A DNA stretch of 64,000 bases from Lepraria neglecta (taxonomy: Eukaryota > Ascomycota > Lecanoromycetes > Lecanorales > Stereocaulaceae): the NCBI GenBank assembly GCA_033220425.1, contig CM065653.1, forward strand, positions 2,294,001 to 2,358,000. Reading direction: 5' to 3'. The notes under the pieces are model-generated. The model was not told the DNA's origin. It was given only the letters and a program-made list of their open reading frames with translations, and did no database searches. The translations under genes and the position numbers were made by a program. Positions 12,019 to 52,224 of this stretch are shown one piece after another (within the stretch, counting starts at the first letter, position 1; each line of letters begins with the position of its first letter).

Positions 12019-12183
12019 ATGGAAGGTGGAATGGAGGAAGGGTGTCAGAGTGTCGAGATCGCTGCGCTTGAGGAGAAGGATGACAGTGGTGACTTTTTGC
12101 TGAAGGTGGATCTTAATTTCGGGTACAATGGATGCTCCCCGAATTATGGGGAGGTGTATGGGAAGAAGGTGCCTGAGGGATGA
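12019..12183 (+). pseudogene. M0: C-terminal fragment of the M family
   Basis: An open frame of 54 codons carries the C-terminal motif of the M1/M9 subgroup: a D-D-x-G-x-F/L-L strand, then a hydrophobic strand with Cys, then YGEVYGKKVPEG. The equivalents are DDNGNLMLKMNF and YGEKV in M1, and DDNGNLFLAVWF in M9. The N-terminal half (IVW/TGP/FTC region) is absent and is replaced by unrelated sequence at 11849-11920. It has the duplicated promoter-like block 230-300 bp upstream. It is a remnant, not an expressed full gene. Confidence 0.6.
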
Positions 12184-12205
12184 AGGAATCGGATATGGTG
12201 TTGGC

Positions 12206-12239
12206 GGAGAAGGAGAAGGAGAAGGAGAAGGGGAAGGAA
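12206..12239 (+). repeat. AGGAGA-type purine microsatellite
   Basis: Five or six imperfect copies of GGAGAA lie just after the M0 stop codon. This is simple sequence with no coding meaning apparent. Confidence 0.7.
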
Positions 12240-12700
12240 AGGTTGGGGATGGAGGTTGGAGAACGTGGAATGTAAGGTGAATTGAGCTTGTGCTCCTGAG
12301 TCTGTTATTTGGCTTGATCGTTGCTTCAGAGTGTTCTATAACTACGAGAAGACTGGACAGATTTAAGGGCAGGTTGTGAAGGAGCTCATGTTCGACTCTG
12401 TTACCTTTGTGCTCAACCTGTTAGAGTCCAGGCTTCAGTATGCGCTATGCAATGCATGCTCCCCGGCTGCTGCCCATCCTTCCAAGCAAAGATACAGGAT
12501 TACTATTGCAAACGTACAAAATTCAGGCTCCATGCACACACACCGCCTACCTTTGCCTGCTTCTCTTGTTAGCAATCAAGTTTCATCCTTGCTCATATAC
12601 CCAAAGCCTGCTGTCCAATATCCCCTCCTCAGAGCCCATCTCCCACCACAACCATCTCATCTAGACAAGACACATCCAGCACCAAAAAGTCATCACCACC
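12240..12700. other. M1 upstream region
   Basis: This contains the ATGCAATGCATGC box at about 12445-12460, roughly 250 bp before the M1 ATG, followed by a C-rich leader and CACC just before ATG. Small open frames across it are not supported. Confidence 0.4.
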
Positions 12701-13342
12701 ATGCCTCCCAAGCTCACATCCATTTATTCCACTCCTGGAGTGAGCAAATTACCCACCGTCAATGCTACCTATGCCTTCGTCTGGTCCGAAGTCACGGACG
12801 AAACATCCAGAGGCTATAAGTACGGCTCCGCCATGCACATCTACTCGTATTCCATGACAAATGTAAACGGCCGCATCCCCTGCAAAGTGGAGTTTTAGTG
12901 GCGTAAAGTTACTGCCGACTTCACGTGCAATTACTATCAACCGAATGCCACCTTCGAGGATTTTCAGTTTGTGGGGGAAAGCATGAATAGGGAAATGAAG
13001 AAGGGGATGGAGAAGGTTGACATCAACACGCTGCCCCCAATGCTCGTGGAAGATGTATATGGCTTTCAATGTCTGGCCATTTTCTTTGAGAGGCACTTCT
13101 GACTGTGTAAACCTGGACAGGATAACGGCAACTTGATGTTGAAGATGAATTTCTGGTTAAGCGAGAGTGAGATATGTGGAAACGTGTATGGGGAGAAGGT
13201 CATTGGCAATGTAGTGGAAGAGTATATGGAGATGTCTGAGAAGAAGAAGAAGGATATGAGTATCGGCATCGAAGATGAGGATGACGATGATGATGATGAT
13301 GCGTACGAAGATGGATGCAAAGCTACTGAGGCCACGTCCTGA
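12701..13342 (+). pseudogene. M1: M-family member with an in-frame TAG
   Basis: It starts ATG CCT CCC, as in M9. The core is visible: TYAFVW, then KVEF-stop-WRKVTADFTCNY, then FEDFQFVGE. A clean intron at 13055-13120 (GTATAT...GACAG, phase 0) leads to DNGNLMLKMNFW and YGEKV. The C-terminus is an acidic tail with a run of seven Asp. The TAG at 12896-12898 falls where M9 has Gln (VEFQWR), so one C-to-T change explains it. Everything else is in frame, so the inactivation looks recent. I do not recognise the fold. Function is unknown. Confidence 0.7.
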
Positions 13343-13519
13343 GGGACATGTGCTTTGAGTGGGAGAGGAGTTTGGAGTGCCAGCTGAGAAATCTAGAGGT
13401 GGACTGAGAGATAGGAGGAAACCATGACAGCTCATATGAGCGAGGATTCGAGCACATCGTCGCAAATGTCGTATATCTCATTGTCACACTAACTAGCAAA
13501 GGTCCGTATACTAAATCTC

Positions 13520-14161
13520 TTGAAAGCGCAAGATTTGCCGAACTCGTTGAGAAGTCTAGAATCCAAAGCATTTTGTAACCAATCTGCTGAACACGAGACT
13601 CTACCACATGCAGATGGCAGATTAGTCTTGCAGTTCTTCGATCCACGACAAACGGAAGACCCCAAAGGCTACGAACCATGCTCCACAATCACAATCACCG
13701 GTCCCAGCTTGGAGCCCCAATCAGACGGCAGCATCCCCTTCAAAGCAGTCTTCCGATGGCGTGAGTACACCGCCGAGTTTACCTGTGGCTACGATTCAGC
13801 CATAGCTTTTAAAGGCTTTGAGCTCGTTGACGGAAGCATGGGTGGAGAGTTTAGGGAAAGGTTTCCGGAAATTGATATTGACACGGATCCTGTGCTGGAT
13901 GATAATGATGTGAGGTTCTTGAAGGTGGATTTTTTTGCGCAGGGAGAGATTTCTGTGAAGATGGTTTTGGGGTGGGTGAGGGAAATGGATTTGGGGTTGT
14001 CGGAGGCGGAGAAGAGGAGGTTGGATATTAGAGGCAGAAATGACGAGGATGAAGACGAAGGCAACGACAAAGGCGATAATGAAGGTGGTAGCACCGAAGC
14101 CACGACCTACGTGAGAAGAGGTGCTTGTAGAGCTACGAGTGGCCCCAGCGGTAGACCGTGA
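13520..14161 (+). pseudogene. M2: M-family member without a visible start codon
   Basis: The frame is open to a TGA at 14159-14161 but has no ATG before the conserved core. The core reads VLQFFDPRQTEDPKGYEP, then STITITGPSLEP, IPFKAVFRWREYTAEFTCGY, FKGFELVDGS, and DDNDVRFLKVDFF. The tail is GLSEAEKRRLDI, matching the family's LTEGER-x-R-LGL end, followed by an acidic DEDEDEGND extension. All family landmarks are present and uninterrupted, so the body is intact while the 5' end (start or first exon) is missing or unspliced here. It is 178 bp downstream of M1 in the same orientation, so it probably arose as a tandem copy. Confidence 0.6.
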
Positions 14162-14645: not shown

Positions 14646-15265
14646 TTAAGGTATCTTCAGCCTCCTCCTCTCTTCATTCGATAGAACAACATCCTCCACT
14701 TCGTGACCTTCCAGCACCAGCTTCCCATACATCTTCGCCCCTACAAGCATTCCCGACTCCATTTCCCCATTCTCAAACGACACCGAAAAAAACATAAACA
14801 AATTCCCATTATCATCTCTAACCTTATCTTCACCGCTACAAATGCTATGCGCGTCCGCATGAAACGCATATCGAATCGTATCATCTTTCTCCGACCAATA
14901 ATATCCAATAACGATGTTCAGACCGTTCAGCTTGAACGAATGCATTGATGTATCCCGTTCGATCTTGAAGTGTGTGAAATTGCAACTCTGCTGATTGTAG
15001 TTGCATGTTAGTGAAGCGTTTATGTCGCTCCAGTGGAAGGAGGCTTTGAATGTTGATGGCAGTTCCGATGACATGGGTGACTTTCAATGTTCACTTGGCC
15101 GTCTAGCGCATGTCCCAGAAAATTGTCGTTGTCATGACTGCACCATCCGAATTTGTAAGTGAGTTCCTTCCTGATGTCTGGTGGGGCTGAATATGATCGC
15201 TCTTGGTGCTTAGCCGAGTCAAACGTAGACTTTTCATTGCAAAGCGTTGGCATAATACCTGCCAT
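14646..15265 (-). pseudogene. M3: M-family member with a frameshift
   Basis: The N-terminal part starts near ATG 15263-15265 and contains LTYKFGWCSHDNDN and GHALDGQVNIES. The next part is in another frame from about 15075 onward: LPSTFKASFHWSDINASLTC, then DDNGNLFMFFSVSF and GKLVLEG, ending in LSNEERRRLKIP at 14646. A one-base shift near 15075 joins the halves exactly where paralogues read ITGP...F-x-A-x-F-x-W. No splice pair fits there. The C-terminal half is clean and is the nearest relative of the M1/M9 subgroup in its DDNGNL strand. Confidence 0.6.
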
Positions 15266-16042
15266 TTGGTCCACAAAGCCGTTTCCTTAGGCGGAAGAAG
15301 CCCTATTGAAACAGATTTCTCAGCAAATTTGAGACTTCGCATTTTGTAGATCGTATCGTGAATCGCCAGTCTTTAATAGGTATGATCTTTCATCATCGCT
15401 CCGAGCAAGGAGCTACAACATGAATTGACAGGAAGATTCTATACCTGGGATTGGCCAACTTGGCGGTGAAGTTCTGACCACTCCCGTTCAACGAAAATAT
15501 ATATGTATAAGAAGACATTATAAGGCAGTACACTCCAATGCGCGCTCAATTAGATAGTCGTAGGGTTTGAGCAGAAAATCCAAAGTCCTGTGCTTCGCTC
15601 AAGTAGATATTGTTCGTCCTCTGCTCTCCGCGATTGGCAATTCTTCAGCTTTCAGCTCCTCCTGCGCATGGGACATGTAATCTTCCGCTCCTTGGGAGTA
15701 ACTTGTTCATTACATCTAGTTCCCCGAAAGTAGACTACTCTTTAATTTCCAGTAATCATGAGCAGAGTTGGGACCACGACGCCCGAAGATGGAGAAGAAT
15801 GCGTCCATTACGTATAGCGTGTCAAATATTCTTCTATCCTCGCCCTCAAGCGGGATGTCTCCTGCGTGACCTGCTTGAGCTTTGCTTGCACACATGGCCA
15901 TGCACATGGCTGACTGGTTTGTCAAGGTTTCTTGATATGTTATCCCTCCTCTTCACGCGTGAGCCTGGTTTCCAACAATTCTCCAACGTCGCTGAGCTTG
16001 TAGATCCTCCTCAACACACAGCACGTGCCTCCCTGGTAGCCA
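15266..16042. other. intergenic, no supported gene
   Basis: A minus-strand frame at 15716-15925 (containing FDTLYVMDAFFSIFG) looks slightly protein-like but has no start, splice or family support. The plus-strand frame over it is a shadow. Confidence 0.3.
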
Positions 16043-17268
16043 TCAAGGGAGCGGTCCATTATTATTTGTTGCGACGAACACTACCTGCACGGATGCCAAA
16101 GCCACGGTAGCAGCAAAGATCTCCACTCTCTTCGCATTTGTAAAGATAGCCAGACAGCCCGCCAAGAGAGCCGAGAAGATCATGATGAGACCCAGCCGCA
16201 CTGGTGTACTGTGGACGTAGTATAACGCGAATATCGAAGCAGGTGGTATGAGGGACGAGAGTATGATGCTAATTGTATTCGCAGCAGCATTGAACTTGGT
16301 ATCCTTATAATCGAACAGCTGTGTCGTTTCATCCCGTCTCTTGAACCGATAGCCTATCCTCTTATGGTATCCAGGCATGACCTTCTCCGTGACCCAGCTC
16401 GTAAAGATGTCCCCATCTGTTTTGCGCTCCGAAAGCGCCACCAGATCTTCAGTCATCTCTTCGTTCCAGGCTTTACCCTCAGGCCAAGGCAGGAATTCTG
16501 CGCCCAAATCTGGGTCGCTGTACCATTCTCGTAGTATGCGCAGGTCATGTCTGCTGGGATCGGGCAGCTGGTAGAGGCGTGAATGCTGGAGTAAGGCGTC
16601 ATCTGCAGAATGTCAGTCCAAGTTTTGTCATAGCATGTTGATTGGTGGCCAGCTCACATACTGTACTCCTTCAGCTTCTCCCTAATCTCAAGCACCTTTT
16701 TCCATTGCCTGCCCTCTACGGCATCGGCTGGGGCAGCCTTCAGCGCTGTGATGTCGGACTTGAACACGCGTCGTTGTTCATTCTCGGAACTGCTGTCAGC
16801 GAGAACCAATCTCTTGAGCTCGTCCTCAAGGTTGATGAGCTCAGATTGTAGGTATAGCAGGTTTTGCGCGTTGAGGGTTGCGAACCGACGGTAGATTGCC
16901 AAGCCATCGTGGTTGCCAAGCAGCCCCGCGAGGGAGGAGTAACTTTGTGTGGATGCTGGGTTTCGGTTGGCAGGCTTCTCGTCTTTCATCATTGACTGGA
17001 ACATTTCAACTCGATTGGTCGGAGGTACTGGCAGAGGCTCTGTAGTGGCGGATGCCTTGGAGTTTGATAACCATTGGAGACCAACTGACACCGCCTTTTT
17101 AGCCACCAAATCGCCCCCAATGCAGCCCTAACCGACACTATCCTGAGCAGGCTGCCTCGAACCCTGTAAGCTGATAGTCTTGCGGTAGGCGCGTCGCGGC
17201 ACAGGCCGTCCTTACACAATGTGACGAAGCAAAGCTGATGTTGCCTGGCTTGTCATTATAGGATTCAT
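16043..17268 (-). CDS. DUF6594-type fungal membrane protein
   Basis: The proposed exons are 17218-17268, 16662-17127 and 16043-16602. Introns are 17128-17217 (GTGTAAG...TTAG) and 16603-16661 (GTATGTG...GCAG); both keep phase. Exon 2 holds SSLAGLLGNHDGLAIYRRFA, then a helical segment LLYLQSELINLEDELK. Exon 3 has LREWYSDPDL and YHKRIGYRFKRRDET. It ends with three membrane helices at the C-terminus (ISIILSSLIPPASIFALYY, LIMIFSALLAGCLAIF, ATVALASVQVVFVA). This N-helical plus three-TM layout is the DUF6594 pattern, a fungal family of unknown function. The first exon (MNPIMTSQATSALLRHI) is my least certain part. The domain body is intact. Confidence 0.78.
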
Positions 17269-17391
17269 GGTCAGGCGCTCGCTCATTGTCGTCATCTTTC
17301 TACGCATGCATTAGTGCTATCTACCCTTCTTTAGCTCTCCAATTCTTGTCTCTCGCGCGCGCCAGGGTTGTCTTTGCTCTACCCGGGAAAA

Positions 17392-18686
17392 ATGCCTCGA
17401 TATCAGAATTACCAGCAAGATGACGACGATGACGATGACCAGCAACCAAACCAGCGCGGGCGGCAGCAAGACGATGACAACCAGAGGGGCCAGGCCCAAC
17501 AGCAGCAGCAAGCGGACGATGATGACGATGACAACGATAATACCAACTCAAGAGGGTTGAAGCCCCAGCAGAACGATGACGACAACGATGATAACAACAG
17601 TACTGTCCAGCGGGGACAACAGGACGATGACGATGATGCTGGAAATACTCAGAGGGGGATACAACAGGCTCAAGACGACGATGACGACGATCCTGCTCCG
17701 TCTCCACCTCATAGCCCACCCCCAGACGACGACGACGATGACGACGATCCTGTTCCGTCTCCACCTCATAGCCCACCCCCAGACGACAACGACAATGACG
17801 ACGATGACGACGATGGGCAAACAGCGGTCAAGTCCTCAAACGTGAACATCAATTTCAACATCAATCTTGGGGGAGACCTCGAAGATTCAGACCTCCATGA
17901 AGGCGGGGTAATGTTCTCGAAAAAGTTGCTGGCACAATTATTTTCTGGGCCTGGAGAGCATGACCCAGACGGTAAAGAAGTACCAGTGAATCAAGTCCAA
18001 CATGAGCATGTGGAAACGGCGGACTCTGGCGAATGGACAATTGTTCAGCTCAAGACTCAGGATGCTACTGGTGCAACAATATATCTGAAAGCTAAGCTTG
18101 ACTCGGGAGCCGATGACAACTTCATGTCCTTTGATACCTATCAGGTGACAGGTGCGCACCCCTGTTCTCCACACTCTATTTCTGTCCACACCGACTGACA
18201 CTTCGCAGGCTTAGACTTCACACCCTATGAAGGCCCAGAGGGCCCGCCAACCTTTACAATGGGAGGCGGCCAGGAAAGCGAACCCCTTGGCACAGTACGA
18301 TTAGAATACACAGCCGGCATCAAGCCTGAAAAATTCATCGAGACATTCCAAGTAATGGAAGGTCTTCCTCACGATGTGATCATCGGCAAGCCTTTGATGA
18401 CTGCGGCGCATATGATGATGGTCAACCCCAACTTTGCGAATCCACCAGAGCATAAGGCTCTGTGCTTAATGGAATTGCCGCCGAAAGATAAAGGTAATGA
18501 TATTCCAGAAGGGTAAGGAATTCAACGCTAATTTTTATGATAGATTCAAAAGCCAAAGCCCTTGCGTTCCAGAAACAAAGAGCAGCAGAGCAAGCAGCGG
18601 CCTATGAAGCGAAGATCGAAGCGCAAGAAGCAGCAGCTCCAAAGTCAGGGAAGAAGCATCTCTTTGGCAGATTCGGTAAGCATTAG
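17392..18686 (+). CDS. stand-alone retropepsin-like protein with Asp/Gln-rich N-terminus
   Basis: The exons are 17392-18151, 18209-18493 and 18544-18686, joined in phase by introns of 57 bp (GTGCGC...CGCAG) and 50 bp (GTAATG...ATAG), giving about 395 residues. ATG 17392 (MPRYQNYQQDDDD) is the first ATG in frame. Residues 8-150 are low complexity: Asp runs separated by QRG and Gln blocks, and a duplicated PSPPHSPPPDD unit. From about residue 225 an aspartic-protease-like domain appears: LKAKLDSGADDNFMS (D-S-G-A catalytic type), then FQVMEGLPHDVIIGKPLM (the I-I-G strand). The C-terminus is Ala/Gln helical, with basic GKKHLFGRFGKH. No RT or integrase is nearby in this orientation, so it looks like a host gene derived from, or parallel to, retroelement proteases. 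Activity is inferred only. Confidence 0.75.
17674..17802 (+). repeat. 57-bp tandem duplication encoding a PSPPHSPPP-Asp unit
   Basis: Two units of 57 bp (19 codons) lie inside the retropepsin-like gene. They differ by a single Ala/Val codon (CCTGCT versus CCTGTT) before divergence sets in. They are flanked by GAC/GAT runs, which favour slippage. Confidence 0.8.
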
Positions 18687-18836: not shown

Positions 18837-19583
18837 CTACTCCTCCACACTCAATCCCAACCTCTCCTTCTCCCCCTTAGTCAAACCCCCAAGCTTCTTC
18901 GCATACAGCAAAACCACACCATCCTCCTCTCTATCCTCAAGAAACGACCTCACAAACAAAAACTTCTCCCCCGCATCATCCCTTACCACCTTCTTCTCCC
19001 GCAAGCTGCTTTGGTTCTCGTCGTAACCAGCACGCAATTCAAAGTGCTCAATCATCTCATTCCGTTCCCCAACCTCCCGCTCTATTCTCTCATTCATATC
19101 AGCCATGACGCTGCCCGTCTTAGCGACTTCGACCTCACCGAGCTCGAAGCAGGAGAAAGTGTCGGTGGTAGTGTCGTACAGGCAAGTGTAATCTGCCTTG
19201 TAGGGGAAGTATCGGAAGGCGACTTCGCAGGATATTTGCTGAGTAAGTTCCTCCAAGCCGTCGATGTTGGCAGAGGTTTCTGTTCCCCTATCCGCATCTT
19301 TTCCTTCCACCACTGGGTCTTCGTCTTCGTGGCCGGTGATGAGATTTGGCCTGGTGATACGGATGGAATTCGTCCCTTTTGATGGTACCAAGCCGGATGA
19401 CTCGCCTCCGACACAGTATGCCCAGACGATTCTGTAGACAATGTCGATATCTGGAGGTTTTTTCCCTTCTTCGGCGGTGCTCATGGCTCCAGGCGGGATG
19501 TTGGTATGGAAGGTATCAAACGCAATGGATTTATAGCTGTTGGATGGTGCAGACGCCATGGTTGATGAAGCTGCTGGTGACAT
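18837..19583 (-). CDS. M4: intact M-family protein, 248 aa
   Basis: This single exon starts at ATG 19581-19583. Family landmarks come in order: VYRIVWAYC near residue 50, SIRITRPN near 73 (ITGP position), ISCEVAFRYFPYKADYTCLY near 116-135, DTFSCFELGEVEV, IEHFELRAGY near 180, KVVRDDAGEKFLFVR near 197-211, VVLLYAKKL, and the terminal LTKGEKERLGL. There is no signal peptide or membrane helix, so a cytosolic or nuclear protein is likely. Length and layout match M5 (246 aa) and spliced M8, which defines the full-length form. I do not recognise the family. It is adjacent to M5 in the same orientation, 229 bp apart. Confidence 0.8.
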   Translation of the reverse strand: MSPAASSTMASAPSNSYKSIAFDTFHTNIPPGAMSTAEEGKKPPDIDIVYRIVWAYCVGGESSGLVPSKGTNSIRITRPNLITGHEDEDPVVEGKDADRGTETSANIDGLEELTQQISCEVAFRYFPYKADYTCLYDTTTDTFSCFELGEVEVAKTGSVMADMNERIEREVGERNEMIEHFELRAGYDENQSSLREKKVVRDDAGEKFLFVRSFLEDREEDGVVLLYAKKLGGLTKGEKERLGLSVEE

Positions 19584-19812: not shown

Positions 19813-20553
19813 CTACAAATCGTCATCCACCGGCAGCCAACCCAACCTCCCTCTTTCCCCCTCTGTCAAAACATTCTCATGCCCCTCTCGCACTCTCTTG
19901 CAATAATAAATGTATGTCTCAAAAGAGCAATTATTTCCATTCAGCCTCACAAACAACATCTTATCACCCTTGTCGTCCCTCACGACTTTCTGATCCTCGA
20001 TGATATCCGGTCCATCCAATGATCCCTCCGGAACTTTCAACTCGAAATGTTCGATCCTGAGACCCCGATTATCGGTACCATGGCTCGCATGGCTCGTCAT
20101 ACTTTCGTACATATCAACGTCCATGTCATATGGAGGGTAAATCTCGCCATCCTCGTCATCCACACCATCATCTTCAGGCGGATTGAGTTCGAAATCCGAA
20201 AGCGTATGAGTAATAAAGTCGTAAAGACACGTCATATTAGCCCAATGGGTCCCATACTCAACAGAAGCGCGGCAAAGGATTTTAGATCCGTCATCGGCAA
20301 TAGGATTAGACGCCTCTCCGCTGCTTTCGTAGACAGTTCTTCCTTCCTGTTCTCCTCGTGCCTCCTCAAATGCCTCGATGCCAGCATAGGAAGATGGCAC
20401 AATGCTGTCAATTGGACCAGTGATGATGATTTCGTTGTCGTATCCTTTCGGAGGAAGATGGCCAGAGGCGTCAGACTGATCACAGTATACCCATACGATC
20501 TTGTATGTGAGATTTACCTCTTGAGCAGTGCCTGGCGCTTCGACGGATTCCAT
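19813..20553 (-). CDS. M5: intact M-family protein, 246 aa
   Basis: This single exon starts at ATG 20551-20553 (MESVEAPGTAQEVN). The core reads TYKIVWVYC near residue 16, EIIITGPID near 41, ILCRASVEYGTHWANMTCLY near 91-110, TLSDFELNPPEDDG, RIEHFELKVPEG near 170, KVVRDDKGDKMLFVR near 189-203, TYIYYCKRV, and VLTEGERGRLGW near the end. Two acidic stretches lie in the middle. The pairwise pattern with M4 and M8 is clear, including IEHFEL and the KVVRDD strand, which the M1 and M6 subgroups lack. No domain, signal or membrane segment is recognised. Confidence 0.8.
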   Translation of the reverse strand: MESVEAPGTAQEVNLTYKIVWVYCDQSDASGHLPPKGYDNEIIITGPIDSIVPSSYAGIEAFEEARGEQEGRTVYESSGEASNPIADDGSKILCRASVEYGTHWANMTCLYDFITHTLSDFELNPPEDDGVDDEDGEIYPPYDMDVDMYESMTSHASHGTDNRGLRIEHFELKVPEGSLDGPDIIEDQKVVRDDKGDKMLFVRLNGNNCSFETYIYYCKRVREGHENVLTEGERGRLGWLPVDDDL

Positions 20554-21035: not shown

Positions 21036-21884
21036 CTAATTACCCTCCTTCCCCAAACCCAATCGCTCCATCTCCCCCTGGCATAGAGCACACTCCTGCG
21101 CCGCCAAAAAATCCTCCAATACCGTCCGCATCTTACAAAGGAAGTGATGTTCCTTCTGTTCAATGCCACTAAGACCCCTCAATTCCACCGACAAAATCCT
21201 TTCTTCTTCATCTCGTGTATCCACATACATCATAACAGTCTCCCTCGCGACTAGCTACTCATACATGTCCTTGTTCGTCTTTTTCTGAGCTTCGAGCGAG
21301 GCTGCCGAGGCCGCTGATATCTCAGTGGGTTGTAGATTGGCGAATGTGGTTGTGGAAGGCGAGTATGTGCACGTATACTCTACCCAGTAGCGTCCGTACT
21401 GGAGCTTGACAGTCACAGAGTAGGAGGGCTGAGGTGGATTGGAGGGTTGGGCTACGCCTTGGGCGGACAATCTTTGGCGCTTTGGATTTGGATGGGCATT
21501 ATCGGAGTCCATCTCGTTCGCGTCTCCGAATTCCTTGAGACCAGTAATAACGACGAACTTCTTTTCCCTGTCCCCTTCCGCTTCTGCATCTTCCATGGAC
21601 GAGTAGATGCCGAGGGGTTTGCTGTAGATCCATACGATGCTGTACGTTTTTGTGTTGGTTTGAGGGTTTGGGGGGTCCGAAGGGTTGGCGAGATTGGTCG
21701 CTGGTGGTTTAGTGCCACGAGGAGGTTTTGGGGCTGGTGTGTATTGATACATGGCGATATCGGTGTTTAGTATTTCGATATTCCTAGCAATAGTTGGCGC
21801 TGGCTGGTCTTCGTAGATGTTGAAATCAACGGATAGTGGTCTGCTGCGGCGGGAAAGGCGGCGAGTTCGTGGGGAAGGCGCCAT
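21036..21884 (-). pseudogene. M6: M-family member with one in-frame TAG
   Basis: It starts at ATG 21882-21884 (MAPSPRTRRLSRRSRPL), very like the start of M10. The core reads TYSIVWIY, FVVITGLKEF, SVTVKLQYGRYWVEYTCTY and TFANLQPTEIS. The frame then hits TAG at 21255-21257, just after KDMYE. The same frame continues beyond it as LVARETVMMYVDTRDEEE, SVELRGLSGIEQKEHHFLC and GEMERLGLG. M10 reads YEWLMQRG at this point, so the stop replaces the Trp codon (TGG to TAG). That single G-to-A change is the only lesion I see. The protein without it would be about 280 residues. Confidence 0.75.
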
Positions 21885-22416: not shown

Positions 22417-22788
22417 TTAACTTATGTTGGGAGAGTAGGAGCAGGTGTACCACGCCTTGTAGCATCCATACCGGAAGTGGGCTTCGTAAGCGAGTCGGGC
22501 TTGTGATGATGTGGTGGTTTGTGAGCTTCGTACAGAACTATTGTTGCCGCCGCTGGGAATCTCGAATTTCTTGGAGCCTTGGATATAGAGGGAGATTTCC
22601 TCTGATATTACTTCAGGCGTACCACACCATCCACTGGAGCGCTCTTCATTGCTTTAGCGGTCGATCCATACGATTTGATAAATTTTGATCATGGGTTGAG
22701 AGTTTGGTGGGCCTGACGGGTCTTCGAGAATTGTGAATTTGGCATGTGGTGATCGTGCGCATCGGGTTCTGCTGGGAGGATTTGGCAT
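22417..22788 (-). pseudogene. M7: truncated, stop-containing M-family member of the M6/M10 subgroup
   Basis: From ATG 22786-22788 (MPNPPSRTRCARSP) the frame gives KIYQIVWIDR, then TAA at 22654-22656. It then stays open for 78 codons, through EISLYIQGSKKFEIP and LAYEAHFRYGCYKAWYTCSY, to a second TAA at 22417-22419. The last piece aligns with KLQYGRYWVEYTCTY of M6. The DTRD and HFLC C-terminal parts are missing. Two stops and a lost 3' third mark it as a pseudogene. Confidence 0.65.
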
Positions 22789-25037: not shown

Positions 25038-25226
25038 AGCACCTCTGAATAAGTTCAAAAGATAGCAAAGAAGGGAGGGAGGAGAGGTGAAAAACAATCT
25101 GTCTCCGCACGCAGACATTATCGCCTCGGCATTTCGAGCGGAACAATGCCGCGATATTATTACCACTTCTCGTTGGAAAGCCTCACACTTCACCCATTCG
25201 GCAACAATCCCAAGGCATTGGCAATC
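25038..25226. promoter_or_regulatory. divergent intergenic promoter region, CoA-transferase / RIB5
   Basis: Only 189 bp separate the two start codons, so the promoters must overlap or be shared. I see no specific factor site that I would name. Confidence 0.5.
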
Positions 25227-26008
25227 ATGTTCACCGGCATAGTCGAAGTCATAGGCAGTGCGTCCCCCATCCTCCCCCCCCAACTCTCCCCCTTGATCCC
25301 AGCTAAATGCCTCTAACCTAGCCAGCCGTCACAACCCTCGCCCACCAAGATGAAACCGAAGGCGGAGGGACATCCCTCACAATCTCCAACTGCGCCGAAA
25401 TCCTCACAGACGCCCACTTAGGCGATAGCATAAGCATAAATGGCACATGCCTCACCATCACATCCTTCGCCCCCTCCCAATTCAAAGTAGGCGTCTCACC
25501 AGAGACACTACGGCGTACGAATCTTGGTAGCCTGAAAGAAGGCTCGAATGTGAATTTAGAGCGCGCAGTAAGCGCCACAACGCGAATGGGCGGCCACTTC
25601 GTCCAAGGCCACGTCGACACCATCGCTACGATCCTCTCCGTAACCCCGGACGGCAATGCACTCACATTCCGGCTGCAGCCGCGTGATCCCAGCATACTCC
25701 GCTATGTAGTTGAAAAAGGCTACGTGACTCTAGATGGCGCAAGCTTAACCGTCATTCAAGTCGACGATAGTGAAGGGTGGTGGGAGGTTATGTTGATAAC
25801 ATACACGCAGGAGAGGGTAGTTACGGCGGGTAAGGGGGAGGGGGAGGAGGTGAACGTGGAGGTTGATATGGTGGGGAAATATGTGGAGAAGAGCGTTAGG
25901 GGGTATTTTGAGGGGTTGGAGAAGGAGGGGATCAGTGGGGCAGGGGGAGGTGTGCTGGAGAAGATGGTTGAGAGGATTGTTGAGGAGAAGATGAAGGGAT
26001 TGAAGTAG
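25227..26008 (+). CDS. RIB5: riboflavin synthase (alpha chain)
   Basis: Two exons (25227-25257 and 25326-26008) are joined by a 68-bp intron starting GTGCGT and ending CCAG, in phase 1, giving 237 residues. The diagnostic MFTGIVEVIG start is present. Two similar lumazine-binding halves follow: DAHLGDSISINGTCLTI with FKVGVSPETLRRTNL in the first, and MGGHFVQGHVDTIATI with GYVTLDGASLTVI in the second. The enzyme disproportionates two 6,7-dimethyl-8-ribityllumazine molecules to riboflavin, the last step of the pathway, and works as a trimer. A Gly- and Glu-rich insertion (GKGEGEEVN) lies near the C-terminus, where many fungal copies vary. It appears intact. Confidence 0.95.
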
Positions 26009-29100: not shown

Positions 29101-32100
29101 TGACCTTGCCAGGCCTCTGCTAGCGTTTTGATTCTGTGGAAGTGGTGCCGGCGTCTGTCCAACTCGTATAGTGTCTTCCCAAAGTGCGAAAACGTGCAAA
29201 AGGTTTTGCATCCTAGACAGAGCCTCCAGAGACATTCTGATCTGGTCGCCGTCCACGCATTCGAAGGGTCGGCCTTTGGATGTTGAGCAACTTAGGATAC
29301 GTGTCATATGATCGTCAAGTCGATGCAGCCAGCGGAGGAGGCTATCACGACGAGTCTCGACGGCGCTCTCCGTGTACGATGAGGAACTCAAGTGGTTGAC
29401 AATGAGTTCAAGGATGCGAAGATCGCAGGAGAGAACTTGCGGTGGATAGTTGATAGCACGGTAGGCGTCTCGCAATTTCTGCCAAAGGAACAGTCTAAGC
29501 GGTAGACTTCCTTGCTCAAAGAAGTGTAGGGCCTCTATCAGCTTATTATCTGGGTTGGCCTGGGCAGGACTGTTGATTGCTTCACCTCCTAACGAAGCCG
29601 TTGTTACTATAGTGTTGGTGTGCTCAGGTCTTTGGGCCCTGACTGAATCACGATTTCTTGACTTTCCATCCTTCACGGACAATTCGAGTAATGGTTCGAG
29701 GCTCTCAATGATGGTGAGCGGATCATTGTTCTCAGAACTGAAGACACCCATGAAGAAGTCCATTGTCGTAAGCCTTGAGATCTCTTTTTGTGCTGCCTGA
29801 ACGGAGATTTCTGGCATGATCGCGTTATTAGGCAGTTCAATGACGAAACGACTGTCACTAGGCACTTTACGTTCCAGCGCATTGATTACGTGGATGAGGT
29901 CTTGAAAGCACAAGACTGTAGAGTCACGAGACTCCGGTTCCAAGAGGCTATTGCACACGACAGAGGCCCACATAAACCGGATTCGAAGACGATCCAGATG
30001 ATCTAGATCATTGCCTATATCCATCGGGAGGGGATCGTCTTCATGGAGTGACCTTAGATTCATCGTTCTGCTCGAAAATGCAGCCCAACGGCCTAGACGG
30101 TCACGTTGCTGAAGCCGAATAGCTGTATCAACCACGCTGCTGGGATTGGTGATCCGTCCATAGATGTCCAGATGCAGTTCAAAGATTACTTGTATTAGTA
30201 GCATACAGGTGTTCTTGCGCCTGTCACGATGCTTCGAGTCCAGATCACTGGTATCCGTCCGCGCAAGCTCACTGTTTTGTTCAATGTTGTCGACCATAGC
30301 TTCGAGCTCGGAGTAAATTGCCTCATATTGGTTCACAAGAACCTGTACGATAGATTGTTTGAGTGTATCAGGCCACAGAAGATTTTCATATGAAGATTCG
30401 AGCTCATTGTCCCCTCCAGGACCATCATCTTCTCCAAGGGGCTGGTGTCGCCCAAGCAGTTCATTGATCCATGCGAAGGAAAGTTGACCAAGGGTCATCC
30501 ATTTTAGTTTAACCCTATTCACGAACTGTTCCATACCAATGTCCCCGGACAGAACCGGTAAGTGTGACACTCGCTGCATCTCTTGATTAGAGTGTTCCAA
30601 GAAAGCTGTGAAACTTGGGTTCTGCGCGCCACTAATCCCACCAGCAGGGTCCTTGGGATCGTGTCCGTTCAGGAAAGCCTTACTCTTCACCAAATCCCAA
30701 CTGTCGAGTGTAGTCTTCAAGTCGAGAGCTGCTACATTCGCTGAGTCTAGTGATGGTTTTGTGTGATTAACTTGACTAGTTGACGACTGAGGCGAGACGA
30801 TTTCTCGAAGCGATTGCAAATCGCCACAACCTTCGGAACCGAACTTGGAGAGCATATTTCGAACACATTCGAATACCTTGTTGTCTGCTTGGTGGTATAT
30901 TTGAAGCTGTTGCACATACCATCGAGTCCAATCGTCCGCCGTAGAGTCTCTGATTGAATCAGGATCTATTGACCCTCTGGCTTTGATCCTTTTGCTTCTC
31001 GAGCGCCCCACTTCCGTAGAATCTGGAAGTTCGGCTGCTTCAGAGGATCTTTTCCGCGTCGGCAATGACACCGTTCCAATTGGTCCAAGGGCCTCCGGCA
31101 CATTGGCCGCAGCTTTCACGGAATCGCGGGTATCGGTCGTTGTCATCTTTGTTAGGCTCTCCATGGGTTGTTCAACAAGCTGTACGCCCATATCTATGGG
31201 AGAAGTCTGACTTGGCTCAGCATCTCCAAGCCAATTGCCCGCGCTAGCGGCTCCGTCTATTGACACCGGCGCCGGTCCAACTAAGTTCTGCCTAGTGCTG
31301 GTCATGGATGCATTCTGGGCGGATGCAGGATCACTGTTCGAGGTTGTCTTCGGTTGTGGTGGCTGAAACGTCGCGGTATCTTTCCCTGTAAGAGCAAGAG
31401 AATAATTGGCGCCAGGATCTGAGTTGATGACACCTTGCATCTCTTGACTCAGCTGAAGAAGGATAGCTTGTCCGCAGCTGGCCCACGTCCTTAGCGGCAC
31501 ATTGATGATCTGTTCATGCGCTGTGTTGACGGATTCTTGTGCAGGAATCTTTAGTGATGAGGTAGGAAGATACGGGCAAGGATCGATGTGTTTCCTCAGT
31601 GAATTGATAATGGGATCTTGCCGCTTGGATGAGTCTGAGAACTGAGATTCAGAAAGCTGATCTTCCAGTGATTGGAGGAGCGGTTTGAGCTGTTCAACAG
31701 CAAAGCCTTCTTCCAATCCCAGGGGCTCGGTCCATGCATCACTTGTGCCTTCGTCAGTATCAAGGACAGCTTCCAAGCAGAACCTCCCAACGCGTCGACT
31801 GCCCAAGAAGTTACCGATCCTAGAGACTTTTCGCCACAGCTCTAGGTCTGTATCATCTCTGTCAAGTGCTTCGACAAAAAGCTTCAAACTAGAAGACGCA
31901 GCAGTTGCAGTTTGGTGCGCAGCAATTGAAATGTCATCAGGTCGATTCTCTTCTTCTATCCTAGAGAGCTGGTCCTTGAGCCGATCAAGAATGAATTGAC
32001 CATGATTCTTGTAAGCAAGGTATAATATTTGAGGCAGCGAACTTGGAGCGCCATCTGCACTTGTGACTGGAACGGTAAGTGTTGGGGTTAATGAATGGTC

Positions 32101-32474
32101 CAAGTCATCTTCAGAGTCCTCCGCGCCGTCATAGAGCTCGATACGTTGGGCTTCAGAGAAGGATTCTGGGTAAGTAAAGATTTCCGAACGGAAAAGCTCA
32201 TTGTAAGCAATCTTGGCCTCATCATAAAAAGCTGGGCCCAGAATATGTAGTTTCAGAGCATTCTGATACAGCTTCAGAGCTTCTTCGATCTAGTAACGGA
32301 TTAGCTAGTCCATGACAAATGAAAATGGCGGGCGAGGACACGAACCTGGATTTCTTTACTATCATCAATCTCGTCCTCGCTTTCTGACTCAATCTCAACA
32401 TTCAGGGGCACAAAGCTGCTCTATTGATAGTTAGGTAAAGGTATAGGTAGGAAGTGTCCAAGGACTCATACCAT
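26147..32474 (-). CDS. HIR3: histone transcription regulator 3 / CABIN1 homologue, HIR complex subunit
   Basis: Seven exons join in phase into about 2002 residues: 32472-32474, 32346-32420, 27926-32289, 27642-27873, 27434-27589, 27079-27381 and 26147-27022. Exon 1 is only the ATG. The N-terminus reads SSFVPLNVEIE, acidic, then KEIQIEEALKLYQNALKLH (TPR-like) and EIFTYPES, as in Hir3/CABIN1. The middle is a long helical TPR-type solenoid. Near the end of the giant exon are RSLRGIGGLCGSPVHTEGY and LAQVFDTMIEEDT, followed by KKRTAAG-type charged stretches. The C-terminal tail is acidic (DDESELSEVDEAVVDD). In yeast the HIR complex is a replication-independent H3-H4 chaperone that represses histone genes. 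The length is typical, with no lesion seen. Divergent from the ChAPs gene. Confidence 0.9.
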
Positions 32475-32935
32475 GTTTAGAAAGTGTCCCTTTTCGGGGT
32501 AAGGTGTCTCGTTGCTCCAGGGCCAGAAATAGGTGGCTCCGGTCCTGAATCCTAGGAGATCTATGAACTAAATAACGCCATGCAATGGGCAAACACCGTT
32601 GATACCGAAAGTGCGGAGAGATGTGTGAGATGAGAGTCATGGGGAAGCCGCGAAGAACCGTTAATTGGAACATGCCAAGAATGATCCGCGTTTAGCTCCC
32701 GTGTAGCTTAATGCGACTATTGCGCCAAATGAACTGTTAGCAAAAATACGGCTCCACTTTCTTCAATCGCATGCTTGAGGACTGTACTTTCTAGGAGGAG
32801 GTCTCTGCGCTTTCTGATAATTTGGGATCTATACCACCAATGATCGCCTTGAGACCATATTGTCAACGAGTCTTGGGGTTTATGTGAGCCTCTAGCCATT
32901 GAAAGAAATTGTGAGCTGCCAATTGACAGCGCGCA
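32475..32935. promoter_or_regulatory. divergent intergenic region, HIR3 / ChAPs gene
   Basis: This 461-bp gap separates the two start codons and contains both promoters. No other gene or named motif is supported. Confidence 0.5.
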
Positions 32936-35338
32936 ATGGTTGTACCTGCGGTCCCTGAGTGAGCATTGGCTATGTGTTTATGTTTAGGGAAACGAGAATG
33001 TGAGCTAATCTTGTATAGGATCGTTGAAGAGGAGATCGAAACGGCAATTGAAAGCCGCAATGAGGCGCTGCAAACCATACGCGAACTAGGTCCCCCGGAC
33101 CTAGTACATCTGGTCAAACAGTCGAAATCTGGAGGACGTCAGGTATGGCTTGTCAACCAGACGGCTTGAAACGTTGGCTAATGCATGTCAGTAGACTGGA
33201 GTCTACCACCATGTCACAGGTGTAGACGCATCCTCTTCGGCTAGCTTGGCAGCATACGTCAATACTCTCGTCTACTCGCCAAATGATAAGACACACAAAG
33301 TCGTTTCTGGACTATACTGGTAAGTTTCTACTTGGAGACACAGGAATGAAGCTGATAGCGATTGGCGCAGCTGCTACAATGCCTTTTCCCACCTGGATAT
33401 GCGGGTGGAGGTCAAAATACCTGGTGGAGTCGAAAGCTATTGCATCGATGAAAGAGGTGACAAGCGCGTAGCCTCCGAAGGACTATGGCTGGAGACGTTC
33501 CTCTGTGCTGTATTAAGAGCATACTCATACGCAGATGATGGCAGTGGCGACAGCATAAAGAAGATTATCGGCGTGCGAAGATTTGATCCTATCACAAGTA
33601 CAGAGGTGGAGCATAAATTTCTTGAGGCTGCCGAACGACTATTTTTCAAAGGCAAGCACATCAATGATTGTATCAGGCTAGGCCTAACATCTCTGCAGGA
33701 TCACAGCTTGGCTCTGAACCGGAAATACAAGTGCCTAACACAGTCTCAAACCACCTCACAACGGGCCTGCTCAATTACATACATACTACTGGACGGTACA
33801 CATCCGGCATAAACCTATTCGAGAAGCTCCGAACGCGGGACGTCGAAGTCTCATCGCTACTAGCGCGTGTCCTGATAGCTGCGGACGAAGAGGTACAAGC
33901 CGTCAAACTCCTACACGATGCAATTAGCGAGCTACCAATGGACTACTCCCTCCTCGATTGCCAGTCTGCGTTTTGCCAAAGCAAAGGGCGGTTGGACTGG
34001 GCCTTGGAATGCGCGAAGCGTAGCGTGACTGCTGCACCTAGCGAGTTCGGCACCTGGGCGAAGCTTGCCGAAATATACGTTGGCCTTGAGCAATGGGATC
34101 TTGCGCTTCTGACGCTCAATTCTTGTCCCATGTTCACTTATCAGGACAAGGACGCTCCACGCATGCCTGAGCCAGCGCGCGTACTTTTACCTGTCTTACC
34201 GGAAAGTATACTGGATGAGATCGACGAATCTCAGCAAGCATATGACAGCGAGCTAGTGCACCCTTCGTTACGAAAATTGCACGCAGCTGGCTACAAAGGA
34301 ACCTTTCTCAAAGCCTACAGCCTACTTACAGAAATAACAGCGAAGATCGGCTGGGATCAGCTGCTTAAGATACGGAGTCAAGTCTTTGTAATGGAAGAAG
34401 AATACAGAAGTGAGAAGCAGACTGGCGGAAATCAAAACGCAAGCACGGTCGCACTGCATTCTGCAAGTCCACGAGTCAACGGCGCATCGCCAGCTGGGCC
34501 AGGCTCAGACGGTGCAGAAGAGGAAACCGATGGTGAATCACGAATGTCAACTGCAAACACTGCAGTAACCCAGGATACCAATGGAGCCACCAGCAATTCC
34601 GATCTAACCGCAGACGAATCGATAGAGAAGCCAAACCACACGATAACTTCCGAAGAGGTCAAGGCCGACAATGAAGAGGTAAGTGCTTCACCAAAAAATG
34701 ATGGAGACAGTAGCTAAACCTCTGCCAGCCCACTCCATCAAGCTCTCACTACACCCAGTTCCACAACAAACGCCTCTGCGAGCGGTGGCTCGATAACCTC
34801 TTCATGGTATTGTATGAAGATCTTCGCATATACACTATTTGGCGCACCGACATGGCACGTGCCAAATCCGAGGAGTCCACTGGTGAATATCGCAAATCAG
34901 CAGAAGAGTGGGAGATACTTGGCGAATTAGCGGACAGGCTACACCACTTCCCTGAAGCGGTGGAGGCATACCAGTCATGCTTGAGGGTGAGATTCAGTCC
35001 AAAGGCTATGACTGGCGTATTGAGGATGTATGAGGGGCAGGGGAGGACAGGAGAGGTGTTGCAGGCTGTTATTCGGCTGATCGCTTGGCAGTATCGGTGG
35101 TACTCGGAGGCAAGTCTTCAAGCAACCTGCCTTGCGGCCTCTGGAACAATACTGACAACTTCATCTGTAGTTCTCTCCAGCGCTGCTCCAAACCGTGCGG
35201 AAGCTCATCGAGACTGAAGGCGCTGTCAAAGTCCGAAGCATTGTTCAGGCGACGAGCTTACCACAACCGGTACTTGATTTGACGCATCGATATGTTGAGC
35301 TCTGTGCTTCTTTTAGATCGAATGGTAGCGATGGCTGA
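32936..35338 (+). CDS. ChAPs (Chs5-Arf1-binding) family exomer cargo adaptor, with one apparent frameshift
   Basis: The exons are 32936-32958, 33019-33142, 33195-33319, 33371-34678, 34759-35109 and 35171-35338. The protein begins MVVPAVPE, then IRELGPPDLVHLVKQS, TGVDASSSASLAAYVNTLVY, a TPR-like helical middle (GRLDWALECAKRS, FGTWAKLAEIYVGLEQWDLA), a Ser/Asn-rich insertion and the conserved end RKLIETEGAVKVRSIVQATS, VLDLTHRYVELC. In yeast such adaptors (Bch1, Bud7, Chs6) carry cargo such as chitin synthase from the trans-Golgi with Chs5. Intron 5 (35110-35170) is of GC-AG type. In exon 4 the frame changes at about 33730: HSLALNRKYK is in one frame and VPNTVSNHLTTGLLNY in the next, with no room for an intron. 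A missing G would explain it. This is either a sequencing error or real damage. Confidence 0.85.
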
Positions 35339-35865: not shown

Positions 35866-36685
35866 ATGGACTCCAAAGCGGATCATCCACCTAACGAGAC
35901 CGCTCCATCCAGCGACCCAGGTTCATTGACAGATGCTCCTCCATCTCAATACATCGCAGCTCCAGAAGTTGTGGAATCCACTGCAGGATCAAACACCGCC
36001 ATCGTGATTGATGAACTCTACAGAGATGTGTGGTGCTACAGCTATCGCGAGCCAGGCACTCACGGCTATATCCCCCACGAAGAATACAGCCCTTCGCTCG
36101 ACATTAGGGGATCTCTCACGCTCGTTGAGCATCGAAAGCCATCCGACTCGCCTTTTCGAATCCCCTGCAAGGCAACCTTCTCGTACGGACCGGAGTGGTG
36201 GGTATGTATTATTCCTCAGCACTTCAGCCCTTGATCAGTCTTAGAATTTCATAGTAAGGTACATCCTAACTATCAAATATATACAGGCCGATTTCACCTG
36301 CCTCTACAACGCCGAAACCGATACCTTCTCAGACTTCGCGCTCTGTCCAGCTACAGATCCAAGCACCGCCATTTCATACGAAATGAATGTGACAATGTAT
36401 GAGTACCTCCAACATCCTATGCAAGGACGGGGAATTGAGGTCAAGCACTTCGAGTTGAAGGCTAATGAGACACCGGAAACACATGCTGGGAGGATTGTGC
36501 TGGACGATGAGGGGCAGCAGATGTTGTTTGTGAGGATGCTGTATAATGGTCATGGCAATGAGGTTTACATTCTGTATCTTAAGAAGGTCGATGATGTGGA
36601 TGATGATGATGATGATGATGATATGGTCTTGACTGAGGGGGAGAGGGAGAAATTGGGATTGAGAGTGGAGGATCTCGAGAGTTAG
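35866..36685 (+). CDS. M8: intact M-family protein, two exons, about 244 aa
   Basis: The exons are 35866-36201 and 36287-36685, separated by an 85-bp intron (GTATGT...CCTAAC...TACAG) in phase 0. The core reads LYRDVWCYSY, SLDIRGSLTL, IPCKATFSYGPEWW (exon end), then ADFTCLYNAETDTFSDFAL, GIEVKHFELKA, GRIVLDDEGQQMLFVR, VYILYLKKV, an eight-Asp run and VLTEGEREKLGL. It belongs with M4 and M5, which lack the intron. The intron splits the W-A-D-F-T-C motif, so an intronless form could have been made by retroposition or intron loss. There is no signal peptide. Function is unknown. It is 18 kb from M4 on the other side of the housekeeping island. Confidence 0.82.
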
Positions 36686-37166
36686 TGGAAATGAGCTTGC
36701 TAGTAGGGTTTGCCACTGTCGTTTGGGGCTGACTTTCTAAACTAACAAGACGTTGTCATGTGGCTATCCGCCCTTTGTCAAATACCCTTTCAAGCCGGTG
36801 CGTATTCATGTAACGTCATGTTCAGAGGATTAGAAAGATTCTCAAGGGAGGCCAAAGATTTCATTGAAAAAACGAAATTGAGTTCACATCAGCAACCTGG
36901 TCACTAGTCTGATGGAGCTCAGACCCCATCATGCAATGCAGATTGCCCAAGCTCTTGTCCCGTCTTTTTTGTTGGTCACAAACAGGCTTTCCATCTCAAC
37001 TTAGAAGCTTACTGCACCTCTCTCGCGTTTGTTTTCCAGAAACAAATATTTCTAAGCCGCTTATTGACCTATAAACAATAGCTCGCTCTAAAAGAACATT
37101 TGCTGCTCGCAACACACTCATCGTCCACAACAGCCGTACCTTACTAAGCAACCTCCCATCTCAACC
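36686..37166. other. M9 upstream region
   Basis: This contains the duplicated block at 36908-36970 (next entry). No gene is supported. Confidence 0.4.
36908..36970 (+). repeat. duplicated upstream block (copy 2), before M9
   Basis: This matches 11723-11795 around CCATCATGCAATGCA and ATTGCCCAAGCTCTTG. It lies about 240 bp upstream of the M9 start. Confidence 0.6.
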
Positions 37167-37661
37167 ATGCCTCCCAACCCATCAGCACCGCCGTCCCCAC
37201 AATCAATATCAACATAACCTACGCCTTCGTCCACTCCTCCGTAACCGCCGAAGATCCCAGAGGCGACCAACCAGGCTCTTCAATCCACATCACCAACTCC
37301 TCGCCCGGGCCCGAAGACGACGGCACCATCTACTGTACCGTAGAGTTCCAATGGCGCGCCTTTACAGCATCATTCGAACGCGACTGTGATCCCGCCACCG
37401 GCAACTTTGTGAAATTTGAGCTCAATGGAGATAGCAGAAAGGGAGATTGGGGTAAATGAGCGCGGCGTGAGTGATGATAATGGGAATTTATTTTTGGCGG
37501 TCTGGTTTGATTTTGGGTGTAGTGGGTGTGTGTCTAACTATGGGAATGTTCGTGGGAAGAGGGTTTTGCCTGGACAGGAAGAGGGGGTTGTGGAGTTGTC
37601 CAAGGACGAGAGGTAGAGGTTGGGTCTGAGGGAGGAAGCTTTGGAGTGGCTGTTGGATTGA
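37167..37661 (+). pseudogene. M9: M-family member with frameshifts and a stop
   Basis: ATG CCT CCC (37167) opens the same way as M1 but in the wrong frame. The core appears one frame over: ITYAFVHSSVTAEDPRG, SSIHITNSSP, YCTVEFQWRAFTASF, FVKFELNGD. It shifts again near 37425 to IAEREIGVNERGVSDDNG and NLFLAVWFDFG, then reaches TAG at 37614-37616 in DER-stop-RLGLREE, before a final TGA at 37659-37661. Two shifts and one stop make it clearly dead. It preserves the Gln codon that is mutated to TAG in M1, which is how that lesion can be read. Confidence 0.7.
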
Positions 37662-38449
37662 GCGGTGGTGATGCTTGTCGCTGTCATTTGGGGCCGATTC
37701 TTCTGCGCTCAGTACGAAGGTGGAATGCTATTTGGTTGTTTCGTCTTTCTCAAACACATTCTAATTCCATGCACAAAACTTCTCATGAAGTATTGCATTG
37801 AAGATTGGCATTTCTTTGGTATGACATTACAGGTGCAATAGAGGATGCAACGCTCTCCCATGCAGGTTTCCAGCCGCATTTTGAGCTGAGTGTTTGCTTC
37901 AGACAGATAAGAGCTGACAGCTGGCACTGCAGCAAGCTTTTTATCCAGCGCGGCTGCAAGAAACTGCCTCTACCCAGCTTCTTGAGTATCACTACTCCAG
38001 ACAATAAGTTGAAAGAATACCATGGGTTACTGTCAGGTTCAACTGTTAGCGTTCTTGGCTACTAGCGCAGCTGACATTCATAAGATTCTAGACTAGGTGC
38101 AGGCCTCTGTCCTCAGGCCCTCCACCCCTCTCCAAATACTCGCAACCAACACCAACATGACGGTTGCCTAGAGACCGCTCTTGGAGCTTTCTTGATTGAA
38201 GTATTGTGGCTTCAAGTTGATCAGTCCCTTGCCGTGCCTTGACTACTACTCATTGCTCCCTACTTTCTCTACCCGTTTCAGACTCATTTACCATACTGGG
38301 CTCGTCTTTGCTCCACAAAATGAAGCCAACCCGTCCGAAGACCCATGGATCGAAACATATCAAAGCTAGAAGGGAAAGAAGATTAATAGCAAAATCAAGG
38401 AGATGTCGGATGTGTTGCATCAGCACCAACTCATCAGCGTTCTCCTAAT
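37662..38449. other. intergenic, nothing supported
   Basis: Short open frames on both strands have no motif or family resemblance. Confidence 0.35.
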
Positions 38450-39415
38450 CAAAGTTGATATACGAAGACCTGGCCACGCCCCGGTAGCGGGCCCGTTGGT
38501 CAAAGACAGCTCCGGGCATTGGTTTCGATCTGACTCCATTATACGCAACGGCAGCGATCCGATACCGCAATGATTGCGTCGTCAACATTGCTAAGGTATC
38601 TTTTGATACAGAATACCATGAAATGATGAGGCGTTTCTCCGTCAAAAAAAACTTGTCCATACCCCAATCCCTTAACAGCGCCTCTCTAACATCCACACAG
38701 CTCCAACCCATATAAAGACTACTGCGGAAACCCCTTGTAGCCGAGCATCTAGAAATTCTATTAAGATCTGCGAAAACGTCTCAATCTCCCATCCACCCCT
38801 TCAGTCGCTCGTCTCGGCTCACCCATAGCCAAGATCAACCACTTAACACCGCAACACCTAGGCCACCGCATCCCAGAAGCAGTAATCACATCACCCTAAT
38901 TCCCCTCTCTCTGCAAACACGACCTAGACGAAGCGGCTCACCTCAACGGAATCCTACCCCTTGACAACAAATTTGGAGAGCATTTTCACGAGCCATCTCT
39001 TACACGAACATGACCTTATTCGCGCGCTGGGAGAGAAGCCGAAATGTACCACTCGTGGTCGGAAAGCAGTCTCCTCGTCTACCATAATCTGGGCTCAAAT
39101 GCACTTCCCACCAACACGACAGAAGAAAGGGAAGCTTATTGGTCCCACATCCGCGAGAGGATTATGAAGCCATGTCTCGAAAAATACAACAGATACCACG
39201 TCGACACAGTCCTGCTTCTCCGAGAAAGCGCGAACGATTCCACTTTCTTGAGCGTTGTGAGCGATGCTATGCTGACGCTGCAGAACGATTTGCCGGACAT
39301 AGTTTATGAGGATGTATTTTACGTAGCGGCGAGAGGTGCGGCTGAATTTGCGAAACGAGCTAGGGAGAATTGGCAGGACGGTTGCTCTGACAGCGCTGGG
39401 AATGAGATGCGATGA
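38450..39415 (+). pseudogene. possible relic of a fungal Hsp70-like (actin-fold ATPase) protein
   Basis: Two separated pieces recall the fungal Hsp70-like proteins. At about 38527-38640 the plus strand reads FDLTPLYATAAIRYRND followed by VSFDTEYHEMMRRFS. At 39044-39415 an open frame ends with LPDIVYEDVFYVAARGAAEF and AKRAREN. The F-V-A-A-R-G-A-A-E-F end is typical of that family. Between them the frames are full of stops and no ATPase phosphate motif is visible. Assignment is from memory of the family's ends and is tentative. The minus-strand frame 38445-38711 is a shadow. Confidence 0.35.
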
Positions 39416-40080
39416 TGGGATGATGAGTATGTTGATCCTATATGGGACGAGAGTACGATTCTTCGATGAAGATGATCTGAAGCAGGGAATGAATCTCAAC
39501 AGGGATACAATCCAGGTTCAAAGCCGCGAGAGCTGATGCAGGGGAGAAAATATTGGTACTGGTCATTTTTGGAAGACACAGTTGCCGCCCCCATCCTCGC
39601 AATTACAACTCATTATGACAGTATCCAACGCCAGCAGCAGGCCTCATCGCCGCCTGCCGTACGGCTGCTTTTATTTTCAACGAAATACGATTGTACAATT
39701 TGGCCGACTAAAGGAAAACCGCTTGTTCGGGAAAAACGCAAAGCTAATTATTGTAATGTAATACGGCTGCCAACACGAGACACCCATATCACTGAGTCTG
39801 AATAGAGCCAATCTAAGGTATAATTAAATCTTTATCCTACTCCGGGTGCTTAGAAAAGCGAGTGTTTGTGAGTTTTTGCAACCAGTAGAAAACGAATGTG
39901 ATTCTTTATTTCATAACTCTTACAGCATAAACAACATACCTTGGCTCACCACCAACTACTACCTGACAGATTTCTTTAACCAACTTCCCGTCTCTAAAAT
40001 CTGGACTCATCGTAACTCCACCTTAACCTAGTATCATTCTACTTATCTCCCACTCTCTTCAACCCGACCCACAACCTACA
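39416..40080. other. intergenic, M10 upstream region
   Basis: This is AT-rich, with no gene recognised. Confidence 0.35.
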
Positions 40081-40873
40081 ATGGCGCCTTCCCAATCAAC
40101 TCGCCGCCTTTCCCACCGCCCTAAAGCACCAAACGCGGATGAGTTCGACATCAATAAAGACCTGCCAACAGCGGCAACCATTCCTCAACACAATACTGAA
40201 ACACCAAGCGCCCATTCCGCCAGCTATCAAGGCCAACGAGCCTTACGGGATGATACTCAACTTGCCACAAATACGTATAGCATCGTATGGGTTCGCTGCA
40301 GGGAATTCGACCTTGATGTACCTGTCGGAGAGGATAAGGAAGATGGAGAGGACAACTGCGTTATCATCCACGGACCCAGCCTATTAGGAGGTACGAGCGT
40401 AATGGAATCCGATGACATGCTTCCCAGCCCAAATCGCTAGAAACTGTCCGACCAAAGCGCTACTACATCCCCCATCATCAGCCCACCACTCAGCATCAAC
40501 GTCGAGCTCCAACACTGCCAACACTGGGCACGATACACAGTAACCTACTCATCCTCCACGGGGCCCTTTTCCAATTTGATCCTCCATTTGCACTTCCGAA
40601 GACAAGGAACTGGATTCAAGCGCCGCATTGAACGTGAGCGAAGAGTTCTATGAGTGGCTTATGCAGCGAGGTGTTGAGATGAAATTTTTGGACACAAGAG
40701 ATAATCAGGGTGGGGAGAGGTTTCTGTGGGTTGAGGTGAGGGGTGTTGGGGGGCTGGACCGGGGGGTGGACCATGAGTTTTTTTGTAAGATGAGAATTGT
40801 GGGAGGGGGTGTTTGTGTGTTGGGTCAGGGGGAGAGCGCAATAGCTGCTCTAGGTCGTGGGTTGATTGAATGA
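40081..40873 (+). pseudogene. M10: M-family member with a TAG and a frameshift
   Basis: It starts ATG GCG CCT TCC, like M6 (MAPSQSTRRLSHRPKAP). It reads TYSIVWVRC and CVIIHGPSLL, then TAG at 40438-40440, where M6 has Gln in KRQRLS. The same frame continues with KLSDQSATTSP, SINVELQHCQHWARYTVTY and PFSNL. A shift near 40580 is needed to reach SSAALNVSEEFYEWLMQ, MKFLDTRDNQGG, VEVRGVGGLD and DHEFFCKMR. The TAG is one C-to-T change from CAG. It is the closest relative of M6 although 18 kb away and on the opposite strand. Confidence 0.72.
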
Positions 40874-52219: not shown

Positions 52220-52224
52220 AGTAG

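Follow-up and report, generated by a model that had tools for sequence, protein, structure and literature searches.

A cluster of old, partly broken paralogues encodes a putative calycin-like protein family in Lepraria neglecta

We analysed a stretch of 64,000 nucleotides (the window, which covers bases 2,294,001-2,358,000 of contig C8; its own numbering is used throughout) from the genome of Lepraria neglecta, a lichen-forming ascomycete (Lecanoromycetes, Stereocaulaceae), in which eleven loci, M0 to M10, had been proposed in an initial annotation to encode a family of proteins sharing an ordered set of landmarks. Each locus was tested with a profile from which its own sequence had been left out, together with its close orthologue if one was in the set; this profile was run against the 1,562 fragments lying between stop codons in the window, and against 15,620 decoys made by reversing or shuffling window fragments. 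All eleven loci were recovered, the best fragment per locus scoring between 22.0 and 103.7 bits and the top decoy between 6.7 and 9.5 bits across profiles. The remaining fragments of the window reached at most 7.1 bits, and no part of it other than the loci was recognised. M0, which was included in no profile, scored 23.1 bits against a top decoy of 7.8 bits. Pieces of a locus taken alone are sometimes weak: the first piece of M3 reached 3.0 bits and the first M8 exon 10.2 bits. These results confirm that M0 to M10 form a genuine gene family, each locus lying above every decoy, and that the shared motifs are real, though variable between copies.

The members fall into three sets. In a maximum-likelihood tree of 16 rows, from which M0 was left out as too short and in which the tool flags long branches, set B (M6, M7, M10 and their orthologues) and set C (M1, M2, M3, M9, an unlinked member and its orthologue) are clades with support of 98/97 and 97/95, respectively; M4, M5 and M8 make up a third set, A, which is not resolved as a single clade. 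These three genes had been described as intact at about 245 residues, and so they are: M4 (18837-19583, reverse strand) encodes 248 residues, M5 (19813-20553, reverse strand) 246 and M8 (35866-36685, forward strand) 244. Both M5 and M8 are 34% identical to M4, with 45 invariant columns across the three sequences. M8 consists of two exons (35866-36201 and 36287-36685) separated by an 85-bp intron (36202-36286), the junction being the same as in GenBank OEA41_010421. That gene model (346 residues, 35866-37456) continues across the stop codon of M8 and joins it to the first part of M9, a fusion that is probably an annotation error.

The loci of sets B and C are damaged to different degrees. The frame of M6 (21036-21884, reverse strand) is complete except for one in-frame stop at 21257-21255, and M10 (40081-40873, forward strand) is cut short by a stop at 40438 and changes frame at least once. 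Only the 5' part of M7, with stops, is present (22420-22734, reverse strand); the profile recognises 22420-22653, and 22654-22734 was assigned by DNA similarity to M6. In set C, M1 (12701-13342, forward strand) runs from ATG to stop and carries two in-frame stops, the second of which lies inside a 66-bp stretch (13055-13120) that starts with GTATAT, contains CTGAC, ends with ACAG and falls between a conserved D and the following D-N-G. Since this stretch is a putative intron, M1 would contain one nonsense codon, at 12896, rather than two. M2 (13493-14161, forward strand) is an open frame of 222 codons in which no ATG in frame precedes the first motifs. M3 (14646-15286, reverse strand) comprises two overlapping frames and one frame change; its profile recognises 14649-15083, and the upstream piece was assigned by eye only. 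M9 (37148-37660, forward strand) is broken by frame changes and by an early stop at 37614, and M0 (11941-12183, forward strand) is only the 3' half of a member. We listed the in-frame stops of the broken copies in search of a shared cause, and no firm pattern emerged.

A twelfth, intact member is unlinked to the cluster. It encodes 165 residues (OEA41_006079) at about 1.956 Mb of another contig (G000:C1, 6,294,035 bp) and matches M9, M2 and M1 in the window at 7e-17, 1e-12 and 2e-4, respectively. Searches of the 42-Mb, 11-contig genome with seven member proteins as queries revealed nothing beyond the cluster and this locus, and no near-identical copies; because such searches score the best candidates only, a very diverged member could escape them. 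Beside the unlinked gene (L011, 5226-8323) we noted by eye an open reading frame (ORF) with an F-box-type start (LPRELRDQIW) and a ferritin-like ORF.

We then compared divergence within the cluster with divergence between species, using proteins drawn from ENA, from JGI and from a source with the code 'lgn', taken as Logan, whose status as orthologues or relatives is presumed from identity. Paralogues are 26-50% identical within BLAST-aligned stretches, as measured in 42 of 66 pairs; the remaining 24 had under 25 aligned codons each. In contrast, the presumed orthologues of M4 and M5 are 85-94% identical, those of M6 88-92% over 105-117 residues, and those of the unlinked member 70, 75 and 97%. 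The duplications therefore look older than the sampled species splits. Third codon positions were the most diverged in all 42 pairs with at least 25 aligned codons, broken copies included, although the margin is narrow in some pairs, the protein-guided alignment is biased in the same direction and the weakest pairs (with E up to 0.1) prove little. An alignment at 2e-24 is still obtained for the broken copies M6 and M10. Since the broken copies show coding-type divergence, we infer from the sequences that their breaks are recent. At the site of the M6 stop, all three relatives that cover it have a sense codon, and two other sequences (P0016 and P0018) appear by eye to change frame elsewhere; the single relative available for the M10 stop likewise has a sense codon, and one relative of M4 is truncated (P0007). 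The presumed orthologues of M4 and M5 come from contigs of equal length (846,298 bp), as do those of M2 and M6 (13,552,908 bp), which suggests that the cluster is present in other genomes.

Overall, old paralogues of the family appear to be being lost one by one, so that its function would now be largely dispensable in L. neglecta. The earlier proposal of local expansion with fast turnover thus survives in one part: most copies are indeed broken, but the absence of near-identical copies and the 26-50% identity between paralogues speak against recent expansion or rapid turnover.

The cluster is divided by a housekeeping island (23685-35217, not assigned to either strand) of non-member genes, which encode a CoA-transferase III, a lumazine-binding protein, the product of a 1,393-codon ORF and a ChAPs-family protein. 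The long ORF (27922-32103) has no Pfam match at E≤0.1 and resembles Hir3/CABIN1 by eye. Each of the three sets is present on both sides of the island; either diversification therefore preceded the separation of the halves, or members have moved. Between M3 and M4 lie a DUF6594 gene split over two frames (16043-17109), possibly by an intron or a break, and an Asp-rich, repeat-bearing ORF followed by a stretch that looks retropepsin-like by eye (LDSGADDNF; together 17368-18516), for which Pfam gave no significant match. The cluster sits in the middle of its contig (C8, 4,488,439 bp) and not near an end. None of the 11 loci shows the signature of repeat-induced point mutation (RIP), in contrast to the AT-rich DNA at 50-58 kb. 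The latter belongs to a larger AT-rich block (48000-60000, GC content 0.32-0.42), also near the contig middle, in which RIP is strong over 50-58 kb (composite +1.12).

In database searches the family was as unfamiliar as the initial annotation had found it. No Pfam or NCBIfam model matched the members, and a sequence search of the PDB yielded no relative, the best E values being 0.16 for one member and 1.2 for a profile. Searches of 5.8 billion protein sequences yielded 16 proteins, of which three are from L. neglecta (one of them the M6 frame of the window) and 13 are others. These searches require shared five-residue words, and a query from set C failed to return members of set A, which leaves room for homologues in other lichens. 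As far as these searches go, we appear to be dealing with an undescribed family limited to L. neglecta and its near relatives.

Structure prediction bears out the suggestion that the proteins form a compact beta-rich domain. An AlphaFold2 model of the unlinked member (P0008; predicted local distance difference test score 79.1, predicted template-modelling score 0.77) is predicted to be an antiparallel up-and-down beta-barrel in a calycin-like arrangement, followed by short C-terminal helices, and the weaker model of M5 points the same way. Eight of the 10 best Foldseek rows for P0008 are lipocalins, with scores at background level, and the VIA rows shown for it, also at background level, are antiparallel barrels by eye. 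The alignment has the corresponding alternation: even positions from 46 to 54 and odd positions from 57 to 65 of P0008 carry a hydrophobic residue in 80-100% of rows, against 0-47% for the positions between them. The inward face is hydrophobic and aromatic, with two Cys columns on adjacent strands; the outer face and loops vary more across paralogues, and loops and tails are acidic. Neither a hydrophobic N-terminus nor a transmembrane stretch was present in any of five sequences, judged by hydropathy only (the highest Kyte-Doolittle mean over 12 residues, among stretches that start at residues 1 to 30, was 0.46-0.98). Lipocalins carry a G-x-W motif at the first strand. In the family, the 14 rows that have a residue two columns ahead of the conserved Trp show I, F or D there and never G, and no Pfam calycin model was listed up to E 10 for any of the 16 members scanned.

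Taken together, we tentatively favour, at somewhat less than an even chance, an old family, now being lost copy by copy, whose members are soluble and probably cytosolic barrels likely to bind a small hydrophobic ligand. Each intact member would be one soluble, acidic, probably cytosolic barrel domain, whose interior would hold one small hydrophobic ligand, for example a lipid or a fungal metabolite, in the cytosol. Soluble barrels of this shape, such as lipocalins and fatty-acid-binding proteins, mostly hold a small hydrophobic molecule. Ligand binding is proposed, with modest confidence, because the arrangement resembles that of calycins, and we infer the cytosolic location. Two points weigh against this interpretation: the conserved aromatic interior could equally be a packed core beneath a variable, partner-binding outside, and inward positions change between close relatives as often as outward ones (4 and 3 of 22). 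The first of these leads to a non-binding scaffold with a packed interior, whose contacts with partner proteins would be made by the variable outer face and loops. Such a scaffold fits the large, aromatic, conserved inward positions and varying outward ones seen across paralogues, as well as the acidic loops and tails. However, the conserved interior fails to separate scaffold from binder, because any beta-barrel core outconserves its surface, and the equal change between close relatives counts against the scaffold too. We regard it as unlikely.

It is also possible, if unlikely, that these are sexual-stage genes, with roles in fruiting-body or spore development, that decay independently in each asexual Lepraria lineage. 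Because the title of its genome paper (Pfeffer et al., 2023) describes L. neglecta as asexual, the loss of such a role offers a sharp alternative that can be tested. The coding-type divergence of the broken copies would fit such a history, as would the M6 stop, at whose site the three relatives covering it have a sense codon, and the apparently different frame change in two sequences. Nevertheless, the intact members number four, and relatives of the unlinked one are 70-97% identical to it, which would be unexpected for a wholly obsolete function. A bolder version combines this history with the predicted fold: a new intracellular calycin-like family of Lepraria and its close kin, whose parallel and independent decay in asexual species would mark the ligand-binders of a lost sexual stage and so constitute a molecular fossil of sex. 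We consider this combination decidedly doubtful.

The initial annotation had instead pointed to a fast-turnover family with a role in recognition, such as defence or allorecognition. The cluster, with its many broken copies and its restriction to near relatives as far as searched, has that appearance. However, no recent duplicates were found, the paralogues are old, the position is mid-contig and RIP is lacking, and none of the HET, NLR, defence or allorecognition domains was matched in Pfam (PADLOC was not searched), so that we hold this role to be quite improbable. That the proteins are secreted effectors or symbiosis proteins, as small cysteine-containing products of a lichen fungus might be, is very improbable given the lack of a hydrophobic N-terminal segment in the five sequences.

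The results thus bring to light an undescribed family of proteins whose predicted fold can be tested. They also indicate that broken copies in a cluster are not in themselves a sign of fast turnover, since here old paralogues appear to be lost singly. As L. neglecta is asexual, comparison with fertile relatives could reveal directly whether copies disappear along with sex.

Among known proteins, the closest likeness is to the calycins (lipocalins, fatty-acid-binding proteins, nitrobindins and avidins), with which the family would share an antiparallel meander barrel, predicted here within 165 residues, a hydrophobic inward face and C-terminal helices. It differs from them in having no Pfam or PDB sequence match and no G-x-W motif, and in structural scores that stay at background level. 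With one or both models, the barrel rows also include the lipocalin-like [4+2] cyclases AbyU, PyrI4, PloI4 and Cyc15. Fungi commonly have gene families that are lineage-restricted and partly decayed, and the present family resembles such orphan (lineage-specific) families in being undescribed and, in protein searches, restricted to near relatives. Unlike them, it comprises old paralogues of three sets that persist and decay together in one cluster.
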